From positions 62,001 through 126,000 of the forward strand of contig JANQFZ010000046.1 in NCBI GenBank assembly GCA_028277605.1: DNA of 64,000 nucleotides, given 5' to 3'. A model generated the notes under the pieces. It did no database searches and had not been told where the DNA came from. It saw only the letters and a program-made list of their open reading frames with translations. The DNA comes from Vallitaleaceae bacterium (lineage in GTDB: Bacteria; Bacillota; Clostridia; Lachnospirales; Vallitaleaceae). Positions 12,545-26,821 of this stretch are shown here, in pieces. The translations under genes and the position numbers were made by a program. How positions within the stretch are numbered: the stretch's first letter is position 1; the number at the start of each line of letters is the position of its first letter.

Positions 12545-12690
12545 GATACTTGTATTGAAGCATATTTTATCCAATGATAATTAAGGGGTATAATAATTTA
12601 AATACTACATATACTGTGTTTGTGGTGTAAATACGTTATTATTGTTGCAACTTTAATATAATAACACTAAGTAAGGGAGGGGATATAATA

Positions 12691-13095
12691 ATACTTAATA
12701 CTTTATTATTACTTACTTTTATTCTAATCTGTTCTTTCTTAGTACTTGGATGTACGTCTAAACCCAAACTTAAAGAAGACAAAATTAAAGAACTTGATAT
12801 CATTGCACTACCACCTCCACCGACCATCATGAGAATTACTGGTAGTGAGGATATTCACCTATTCGTAGATTTTTTCAATTCTCTTAACTTTCAACCACTT
12901 GGTTATGATAATATTAAAGGCTGGCAATTTAGAATACACTTGACTAATGATACCGATGACATCTATTTTATCAGCGATAAGGTGAGTATCAGTGGGAAAT
13001 GGTATGCAATTGATTCTGATGCTATTAATAAACTGGATGTGTTATATAAGAATTATAATTATAAAAAAGAAATATGGAAGTATCCAAATAATTAA
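12691..13095 (+). CDS. Small putative lipoprotein lacking a canonical start codon (AUA start?)
   Basis: The frame from about 12691 encodes a classic lipoprotein signal: the hydrophobic stretch LNTLLLLTFILICSF then LVLGC (Cys21). A charged and Pro-rich linker follows (KPKLKEDK, LPPPPTIMR), then a folded domain of about 90 residues ending at 13095. A strong GGGAGGGG ribosome site (12675-12682) sits 5-8 nt before the triplets ATA ATA. No ATG, GTG or TTG occurs in frame between the upstream stop at 12628 and the internal ATG at 12829, which would remove the signal peptide. So the gene starts at AUA, or it has lost its start codon. The signal has no Lys/Arg, which is also unusual. I do not recognise the domain. 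The secreted peptidase gene follows 17 nt later. Confidence 0.6.
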   Translation: MLNTLLLLTFILICSFLVLGCTSKPKLKEDKIKELDIIALPPPPTIMRITGSEDIHLFVDFFNSLNFQPLGYDNIKGWQFRIHLTNDTDDIYFISDKVSISGKWYAIDSDAINKLDVLYKNYNYKKEIWKYPNN

Positions 13096-13112
13096 AGGGA
13101 GAGTTGGTAAGA

Positions 13113-14093
13113 ATGAAAAAATACTTTTTTGCATTATTAATGATGTTTGTTATGTGTGTCACTTTATGCTCAACTGCTTTTGCTAAAGAATCTAAACCAT
13201 CTAAATACTCGAAAATTAAAGCTCATGCTGAAAAATTCATGAAAGCTCATACAGTAAATTATTTATTAGAAGAACCCATTGAACTCTATAATCTTGAAGA
13301 TAAAGTGGTTGCTTTATTCTTTAAGTCAACAAAAAGTGGTTATATTATCGTTAACACCGAGAATTTAACTGTTCCAGAATTTTCACCTACAGAAAATAAT
13401 AAATTTATCACCAACCGAAATATTAAGTATTTTTATAATGGTCCATTAACCTATATGGAAAAGGTTGGAGATTCTATTATTGATTTAAAATCTCATGAAG
13501 CCATGGGAAATGAAAAGCAGCTTAAAACTCAATTAAAACGTACGATGTTATATGGTACTGAAAATATTACTGCGGCTACAAATACTAAATCAGCTACAAG
13601 AGCAACTCAAGATCAAATTTATGGAACCGTACCAAATTATTCCTATAATCCTACTGGTATCTGTGGTTCAACAGCTTCTGCTATGCTAACTAGATACTAT
13701 GATATCTATGTAGATGGAAGATTTGTACCATCTTATTTAGAATCCTCAGATGGTGTTGCATTAACGAAACATTTAGTTCCATACATTGATGGTTCCACAC
13801 CTGGTAGTACAGCTACAGAATTACGTAATGGTCTTAACAATTATTTGTCTGATCAAGGTGTTAGCAAACGTGTATCTACTTATTATTCCTCACTTATCAA
13901 TACAATCAAGTCATCTGTAAGCAGCGATAATCCATATATCCTTGGACTTTATAATCATCCAAAATATGGTAATCATTGGGTAACAGGTTATGGATATTAT
14001 GATAGCTCTGATGATTATGCGCTTGTTAATGATGGATGGGGAAGCGTTAATGTTTGGATTCATTTGTACTATGCAGACGTTGTAGCTAAATAA
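13113..14093 (+). CDS. Secreted cysteine peptidase-like protein (C39-like/streptopain-like)
   Basis: The 326-residue protein has a clear signal peptide, MKKYFFALLMMFVMCVTLC with AFA before the cleavage site. Residues about 30-140 resemble a propeptide (VVALFFKSTKSGYIIVNTEN). The C-terminal catalytic-type domain has the nucleophile segment GICGSTASAMLTRYY, the His segment GNHWVTGYGYYD and VNDGWGS, matching a papain-like Cys-His-Asn/Asp arrangement of the C39_2/C10 group. The likely start is the ATG; the TTG 9 nt upstream lies too close to GGGAG. It probably acts outside the cell on peptides or peptidoglycan cross-links, but the substrate is unknown. It is likely cotranscribed with the preceding lipoprotein. 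Confidence 0.75.
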   Translation: MKKYFFALLMMFVMCVTLCSTAFAKESKPSKYSKIKAHAEKFMKAHTVNYLLEEPIELYNLEDKVVALFFKSTKSGYIIVNTENLTVPEFSPTENNKFITNRNIKYFYNGPLTYMEKVGDSIIDLKSHEAMGNEKQLKTQLKRTMLYGTENITAATNTKSATRATQDQIYGTVPNYSYNPTGICGSTASAMLTRYYDIYVDGRFVPSYLESSDGVALTKHLVPYIDGSTPGSTATELRNGLNNYLSDQGVSKRVSTYYSSLINTIKSSVSSDNPYILGLYNHPKYGNHWVTGYGYYDSSDDYALVNDGWGSVNVWIHLYYADVVAK

Positions 14094-16315: not shown

Positions 16316-16635
16316 AAGAACTTATCCCTCCAAGATTATATTTATATCACTTACTTCATGCATATATCTAAAAAATAGTAACTACACTTATTCTAACAAA
16401 AACTATCAGAGCTTTAAAGTATTGAGTATTTAAAAAACACTTGGATGATAATAAAATCCAAAATAAGGCTTATGAGTATTAGATACATAGTGAAACACAA
16501 ATATTTCCAGCTGTTACTAATGAATAACAAGCCTACCTGTGGATTATAATATAAAGAAGAAACATTATTAAAAAATACTAATTCTAGTATACTATATTTA
16601 AATTCTATGATATATTAAGAGTAACTCTAGAATAA
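16316..16635. other. Intergenic region between adh (-) and the superoxide dismutase gene (+)
   Basis: AT-rich and divergent promoter-bearing by position, but no convincing -35/-10 pair could be fixed. A weak partial match to a PerR-type box near 16550 is not good enough to call. Confidence 0.4.
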
Positions 16636-16668
16636 ATAATAGAGTATTACTATTTTAAAGGAGGTTTT

Positions 16669-17328
16669 ATTATCTATTATCCATCTATTCCATTAGGAAA
16701 ACACCAATTACCACCACTGCCTTATGCTTATAACGCACTAGAACCGAATATCGGGGAACAAACCATGCGATTACATCATGACATTCATCATCAGGCTTAT
16801 GTAAATGGTCTGAATAAAGCTGAACTAGAATTAGAAAAAGCACGTCAAAATAAGAATTTTGATATGATATCATATTGGGAAAACCAATTGGCTTTTAATG
16901 GCTCTGGACACATTTTACATAGTGTGTTCTGGACTATCATGACTCCTCCTGGAGCTGGTGGACAGCCAGGTATGTACACTATGGAACAAATTAATAAGTC
17001 TTTTGGCAGTTTTGATGGATTCTTAGATCAATTTAAAGCCGCTGCCGCTAAAGTAGAAGGATCAGGCTGGGCAATACTTGTATGGAATCCAGCATGGGGA
17101 CGATTAGAGGTTCTAACCGCTGAAAAGCATCAAAACCTTACTGAGTGGGGCAGTATTCCTATACTTCCTATAGATGTTTGGGAACATGCTTACTATTTGG
17201 ACTATCAAAACAAACGACCTGATTATATTAATAACTTTGTCAACATCATCAATTGGAATGCAGTTGAAGAACGATTATTACTAGCTATGAAGGGTGAAAC
17301 ACCTATTACATTAGAAAACAAAAGCTAA
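16669..17328 (+). CDS. sodA: Superoxide dismutase (Fe/Mn family) with non-canonical start codon
   Basis: The frame encodes a full-length Fe/Mn superoxide dismutase: YYPSIPLGKHQLPPLPYAYN, the first metal ligand in MRLHHDIHHQAYVNGLN, the second in NGSGHILHSVFW, and the DVWEHAYYLDY motif with the last Asp and His ligands. The NGSGH...H pattern looks Mn-like. Upstream is an ideal AAAGGAGG (16657-16664), then TTTT ATT ATC TAT TAT. No ATG, GTG or TTG is in frame from the stop at 16633 to the ATG at 16765. That internal ATG would delete the conserved LPPLPYAYNALEP region. Initiation at AUU (16669) or AUC (16672) is therefore implied, or a start codon was lost. The enzyme detoxifies superoxide in this presumed anaerobe. 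Confidence 0.82.
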   Translation: MIYYPSIPLGKHQLPPLPYAYNALEPNIGEQTMRLHHDIHHQAYVNGLNKAELELEKARQNKNFDMISYWENQLAFNGSGHILHSVFWTIMTPPGAGGQPGMYTMEQINKSFGSFDGFLDQFKAAAAKVEGSGWAILVWNPAWGRLEVLTAEKHQNLTEWGSIPILPIDVWEHAYYLDYQNKRPDYINNFVNIINWNAVEERLLLAMKGETPITLENKS

Positions 17329-17335
17329 GAAATAC

Positions 17336-17367
17336 GGGGCTGTACAAAGCTTGTACAGCCCCTTTTT
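17336..17367 (+). terminator. Rho-independent terminator of the superoxide dismutase gene
   Basis: Perfect 11-bp stem GGGGCTGTACA/TGTACAGCCCC with a 5-nt loop, followed by TTTTT. Confidence 0.9.
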
Positions 17368-25831: not shown

Positions 25832-25859
25832 TTGCATTTCTTGTTAGATATGTTATAAT
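25832..25859 (+). promoter_or_regulatory. SigA-type promoter of smpB
   Basis: TTGCAT (25832-25837), 16-nt spacer, TATAAT (25854-25859), about 50 nt before the start codon. Confidence 0.75.
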
Positions 25860-25910
25860 GTGATTTACGGCGTTTCGTGCCTAGATATCAACCATTTGGG
25901 GTGTTCTATT

Positions 25911-26372
25911 ATGAAGTCAAATTACAAGTTAATAGCCCAAAACAAGAAAGCCAGACATAACTATTTTATTGAAGGAACTTATGAGGCTGGAATTGCACTT
26001 GCAGGCACAGAGGTAAAATCTCTTAGAATGGGAAAGTGTAGCTTAAAAGAAAGCTTTATAAAATCTGAAAATGGGGAATTATTTATTTATAATATGCATA
26101 TTAGTCCCTATGAAAAAGGTAATATATTTAATAAAGATCCTTTAAGAATAAGAAAGCTGCTTCTTCATAGGTACGAAATTAATAAAATCCAAGGGGCTGT
26201 TAGCCAGAAGGGATTTACAGTCGTTCCTTTAAAGGTTTATTTAAAAGGCAGCTTAATAAAGGTTGAAATAGGTCTAGCAAAAGGTAAGAAGCTTTATGAT
26301 AAGCGTCAAGATATTGCTAAAAAGGATCAACGTCGTCAAGCAGAAAAACAATTTAAAATAAAGAATCTCTAA
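25911..26372 (+). CDS. smpB: SsrA-binding protein SmpB
   Basis: The 153-residue protein is of usual SmpB length. The N-terminal core is [20 protein letters not shown] followed by [18 protein letters not shown]. It then has SPYEKGN and [12 protein letters not shown], and ends in the basic tail [20 protein letters not shown] that enters the ribosomal mRNA channel. SmpB delivers alanyl-tmRNA to stalled ribosomes for trans-translation. The ATG at 25911 is preceded by GGGGTG. An in-frame upstream ATG at 25860 overlaps the promoter and is excluded. The tmRNA gene follows about 100 bp downstream from its own promoter. Confidence 0.96.
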
Positions 26373-26468: not shown

Positions 26469-26821
26469 GGGGGTGTACTGGTTTCGACGGGGACATTTGA
26501 AGTTGGAGGAGCCATCCGCAGTTTCTGGGGCTGCGTCATCAACCTGGAACATAATTATAAACGCAAACGAAGATAATTACGCTTTAGCAGCTGCTTAAAG
26601 CTGCTTGTCTCACCTTGGTAACCCGCAACTAGGGATGAGGCATCAACTTAGCGGGGCACTTCGCTTTCGACGCTCCTAGAAAGTGGAAGAACTTAGAGAG
26701 CTACTAAAGTCTAAAGCCTGTCGTTAGGCGTTAGATAGAGGGAATGTTAAAGTAACGACTGTGATGGGAGATACTCTGATGGATGAGTTTTCGGACGGGG
26801 GTTCGATTCCCCCCACCTCCA
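26469..26821 (+). ncRNA. ssrA: Transfer-messenger RNA (tmRNA)
   Basis: The 353-nt RNA has 5' GGGGGTGTACTGGTTTCGAC and the T-arm GGTTCGATTCC at the 3' end. The acceptor stem pairs GGGGGTG with CACCTCC, including one G-U pair. The tag reading frame at 26563-26598 encodes ANEDNYALAAA and a TAA stop. The 3' CCA is not encoded (the discriminator A is followed by TTC), so it must be added by nucleotidyltransferase. With SmpB it rescues stalled ribosomes and tags the incomplete proteins for proteolysis. It sits just downstream of smpB, as in many Firmicutes. Confidence 0.97.

Follow-up and report, generated by a model that had tools for sequence, protein, structure and literature searches.

A superoxide dismutase gene of a Vallitaleaceae bacterium with a likely AUC start behind an extended Shine-Dalgarno sequence

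The window analysed here is a stretch of 64,000 nucleotides from a Vallitaleaceae bacterium (assembly GCA_028277605.1, contig JANQFZ010000046.1). On its plus strand, an open reading frame at 16636-17328 contains an Fe/Mn superoxide dismutase (SOD) and is bounded by an upstream TAA at 16633 and a stop codon at 17326-17328. The frame matches both Fe/Mn-SOD Pfam domains above cut-off, Sod_Fe_N (PF00081; 98.4 bits, 3.3e-28) and Sod_Fe_C (PF02777; 133.1 bits, 4.4e-39), and has no internal stops or frameshifts. All 45 SOD columns conserved at 90% or more are matched, and the metal ligands are all kept (H47, H95, D180 and H184, counted from the frame start at 16636). An intrinsic terminator with a 12-bp stem and a T-rich tail lies just 3' of the SOD stop codon, at 17336-17362. 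The search for superoxide defences covered Fe/Mn-SOD and the desulfoferrodoxin family. It found one Fe/Mn-SOD in the genome, the copy in the window, with no second Fe/Mn-SOD and no family match to a desulfoferrodoxin-type superoxide reductase, which gives a reason for the SOD gene to be retained.

The SOD gene most likely starts at 16672 rather than at 16636, giving a coding sequence of 218 amino acids plus stop (16672-17328) in which the Sod_Fe_N alignment begins at residue 10. An extended Shine-Dalgarno (SD) sequence, AAAGGAGG at 16657-16664, forms a 9-nt contiguous match to AAAGGAGGT, with a pairing energy of -13.2 kcal/mol against the 16S tail; of 689 sampled ORFs of this genome that carry an ATG, just 6.7% have a stronger one. 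Two candidate codons follow it. ATC at 16672-16674, the most likely initiation codon, lies 7 nt after GGAGG, which is optimal spacing, and is a single base (16674) away from ATG. ATT at 16669-16671 is less likely, lying only 4 nt after GGAGG, below the optimal spacing, and out of register with the ATG of the homologue aligned below. No canonical codon (ATG, GTG or TTG) in the 16636-17328 frame keeps the conserved SOD N-terminus, and the first to occur is the ATG at 16765-16767. The original prediction had described this same arrangement, a strong SD followed by ATT ATC and no canonical in-frame codon before 16765, and it is confirmed. A start further upstream is ruled out by the TAA at 16633, which closes the frame, and an upstream ATG at 16608 meets a TAA three codons on. 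The missing start is more than an upstream start that had merely been overlooked. A leader hairpin hiding the start was also rejected, as 16622-16720 folds no better than shuffled sequences do (z -0.29).

Comparison with homologues indicates which of the two codons was formerly the start. Outside the family, the closest SOD homologues share 61-64% identity with the window SOD, the nearest available being at about 64%. The SOD of genome G055, at 62% identity, aligns without gaps such that its ATG falls on ATC 16672 (MHHRMIPTGQHQLP in G055 versus (ATC)YYPSIPLGKHQLP in the window). The 5' codons are ATG CAC CAC AGA ATG ATA CCA ACA GGG CAA CAC in G055, and ATC TAT TAT CCA TCT ATT CCA TTA GGA AAA CAC from 16672 in the window. 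The codon that used to be ATG is thus ATC 16672 and not the preceding ATT. A canonical start (ATG, TTG or GTG) before the LPxL motif is present in 97 of 98 SOD frames from many phyla, the window SOD being the exception. Since none of the 97 other frames shares an AUC start, the codon shows no evolutionary conservation; conservation among orthologues, the mark of a start selected for regulation, was not seen with homologues of at most about 64% identity.

Real initiation at an AUH codon (AUA, AUU or AUC) is likely for the SOD gene and is its best-supported reading, favored by the extended SD, the ATC at the position of the relatives' ATG, the undamaged reading frame and an ATA start in infC of the same genome. 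In the mechanism proposed, which is probably the correct one, an ancestral AUG at 16672 would have turned into AUC, and the extended, well-spaced SD would enable the ordinary fMet-tRNA (CAU anticodon) to read it despite a C-C mismatch at the third base. IF3 would discriminate against the AUC, limiting SOD yield to a fraction of what AUG would give. Such a low level may be adaptive, in an anaerobe with little need of SOD, or may simply be tolerated. With the usual start lost and an AUC behind a very strong ribosome binding site, the SOD is probably translated weakly. We infer all three elements, namely use of the AUC, low SOD yield and dependence on IF3, the last two by analogy with published work on such codons, from which low expression under IF3 control would follow. 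The C-C mismatch itself counts against the AUC reading, as does the weak genome-wide enrichment of AUH codons behind strong SDs (p=0.077).

An AUH codon in infC is the classical autoregulatory start of IF3. In this genome, infC (L120, G000:C8, 11637-12218, minus strand) reads GGAGGTG TCTTCTT ATA AAC GAT TTA ATG ATT AAT GAG, with the SD placed for ATA. The relatives in the family have ATT AGC after GGAGG in all 19 cases read, and the codons past the start (ATA AAC GAT TTA here) differ as well. The infC start is a switch from AUU to AUA in which the AUH class has been retained. Such infC starts show that the lineage reads AUH codons, a precedent that makes AUH initiation credible for the SOD gene. 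In other bacteria infC starts with AUU (E. coli), AUC (Streptomyces) or AUA (S. aureus) (PMC5472188, PMC13009471). Like the SOD gene, these have an AUH codon behind a strong SD, and in infC the codon is read by fMet-tRNA and discriminated against by IF3. The infC codon, however, is conserved across phyla and autoregulatory, whereas the SOD AUC is found in one genome only.

AUH starts behind strong SDs are on record for S. aureus, E. coli, Streptomyces and Listeria, and a start like that of the SOD gene is a rare, already known way to keep a protein low; no new mechanism is shown here. In S. aureus, AUA and AUU codons behind an extended SD reach about 10% of AUG levels in poor medium and, in the case of ccpN, up to 30% in rich medium (PMC13009471). 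The S. aureus genes ccpN (AUA), cvfC1 (AUU) and citZ (AUA) share with the SOD gene the combination of extended SD and AUH, although their starts, AUA or AUU rather than AUC, were mapped by Ribo-Ret and reporters (PMC13009471). A parallel in distribution is citZ, a metabolic enzyme gene still expressed after a loss of AUG limited to the NCTC 8325 lineage; the loss in SOD is likewise lineage-restricted. In Streptomyces, where infC has an ATC start, the oxidative-stress regulator gene sigR has a GTC start under IF3 repression (PMC5472188). The sigR gene resembles the SOD gene in its link to oxidative stress, non-canonical start and extended ribosome binding site, but it encodes a regulator rather than an enzyme, uses GTC and is conserved in 32 of 34 species. 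In Listeria rsbW, protein is still produced after the ATG is changed to ATA or ATT, so that a point change in the start lowers translation without abolishing it (ATG > ATA > ATT); unlike the SOD change, these mutations arose under laboratory selection and are adaptive through lowering an antagonist (PMC13068326). As cited in PMC13009471, E. coli pcnB starts with AUU (Binns and Masters 2002) and is, as proposed for SOD, a chromosomal enzyme gene kept low by an AUH start, differing in its codon and in having been proven experimentally. In a cell-free study, weak third-base pairs were selected against by IF3 (PMC10158994).

The foremost alternative to initiation at AUC is a recent loss of the start that leaves the SOD silent or nearly so, as an early pseudogene or a polymorphism in the population. 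Anaerobes often can do without SOD, a single substitution suffices, and the AUC is private to one genome among the 98 SOD frames. Nevertheless, such a loss is rather unlikely: the SOD protein, SD and terminator are otherwise undamaged, the gene is the sole Fe/Mn-SOD found in a genome where the desulfoferrodoxin-family reductase was not found, and reported changes from ATG to AUH behind extended SDs leave translation going (PMC13009471, PMC13068326).

It is improbable that the true codon is ATG and that a consensus or sequencing error, or a strain mixture, affects this one base. The assembly is a draft of 86 contigs, and the ATG that relatives carry is one base off. However, an error hitting exactly a start codon is a priori unlikely, and infC and a Fur-family gene of the same genome carry the same kind of codon. 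Long ORFs are intact over the 965 kb surveyed, with 707 of 745 ORFs having a normal SD and canonical start, which indicates a low base error rate.

There is very little chance that a shortened SOD begins at the internal ATG 16765, even though this is the first canonical codon in frame and the four metal ligands all lie downstream of it. It corresponds to residue 32 from the ATC, so that 31 residues including LPPLPYAYNALEP would be lost. This loss takes with it the first strand-turn of Sod_Fe_N and nine of the 45 highly conserved columns, making the codon a poor candidate; the original prediction was right that such a start would delete a conserved segment. Furthermore, no SD was detected for this ATG, and AAAGGAGG, about 100 nt upstream, would be left without explanation.

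Finally, an organism-wide relaxation of start selection through altered IF3, initiator tRNA or 16S, with wide use of AUH starts, could be suggested by the set of AUH candidates (SOD, infC, a Fur-family gene at L184, an XRE-type gene at L208, L177, L178 and the lipoprotein-like ORF of the window), but it is hardly to be believed, as AUH frequency is no different from that of three relatives, IF3 departs from family-invariant columns only by a conservative change of E to Q in its N-domain, and the initiator tRNA looks ordinary, with a CAU anticodon, three G-C pairs and a 1-72 mismatch.

The figures behind this comparison come from a survey of 965 kb, or 29% of the genome, a non-random sample weighted towards the window, infC and contig starts. 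As controls, 400 kb were taken from each of three family relatives (G006, G016 and G014), and the count took in ORFs that lack a usable canonical start but have an SD match of at least 6 nt. In the 965 kb, AUH codons stand at the right spacing at four of eight start-less sites with a strong SD, which is not a significant enrichment over chance (p=0.077). The rate is also not above that of the relatives (4 of 745 ORFs versus 3 of 990; Fisher p=0.47), the count being mechanical and both groups including unverified ORFs. AUH starts are rare but present in the family, and nothing marks the organism out in this respect. The original prediction had argued from two genes in the window to AUH initiation as a property of the organism. 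This generalization is unsupported by either comparison, and IF3, whose variants it proposed to check, is ordinary and matches 81 of 82 family-invariant columns; what stands of the AUH claim is the likely initiation at the SOD gene itself, on the strength of its SD, register and intact frame and of the infC ATA.

The second gene of that prediction is almost certainly a lipoprotein-like ORF at 12631-13095 of the plus strand. It too lacks a canonical start, and has the SD AAGGGAGGGG, three ATA codons (12685-12693) behind AAGGGAGGGGAT, a lipobox LVLGC and a first ATG only at codon 66. The ORF has no Pfam or family match, so that its putative N-terminus is judged by its look of a signal peptide and lipobox. 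An ORF with a C10-like protease fold, as judged by eye, adjoins it at 13104-14093.

Other AUH candidates lie elsewhere in the genome. A Fur-family ORF (L184, G000:C16, 13479-13934, minus strand; TTGGAGGTGATTAACC ATA) has an ATA behind TTGGAGGTGA and no ATG, GTG or TTG before codon 60. Its closest relative is 56% identical, and relatives with a readable start have ATG or GTG. At least three more Fur-family genes are present in the genome. Weaker candidates, likewise behind an SD, are an XRE-type HTH protein (L208, 2703-2906, minus strand) with ATT, an unknown protein (L177, 3643-4020, plus strand) with ATT or ATA, and a kinase-like protein (L178, 3653-4738, minus strand) with ATA. Among the family relatives, a lipoprotein-like ORF of G016 (L242, 12386-13081, minus strand; GAGGAGGA then ATA) and a methyltransferase-like ORF of G006 (L227, 12180-12926, plus strand; AAAGGAGGAG then ATA) also look AUA-started, though the latter may instead be a damaged gene.

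The SOD gene (AUC), the Fur-family gene (AUA) and infC (AUA) all pair a strong SD with an AUH start. It is a long shot that the level of IF3 tunes translation jointly across this small redox and metal set; if it did, a change in IF3 would move superoxide defence and metal regulation together. If the AUC is used, the only SOD detected in the organism becomes one more metabolic enzyme with a natural AUH start, and the case supports the extended SD with AUH as a recurrent device for low protein levels whose genes are under-annotated. Standard gene callers would shorten the SOD at the internal ATG or flag the gene as broken.

Two further genes of the window may be recorded. A tmRNA gene at 26469-26821, with the tag ANEDNYALAAA, adjoins smpB (25848-26372), in which a GTG far upstream of the likely ATG comes first among the in-frame starts.
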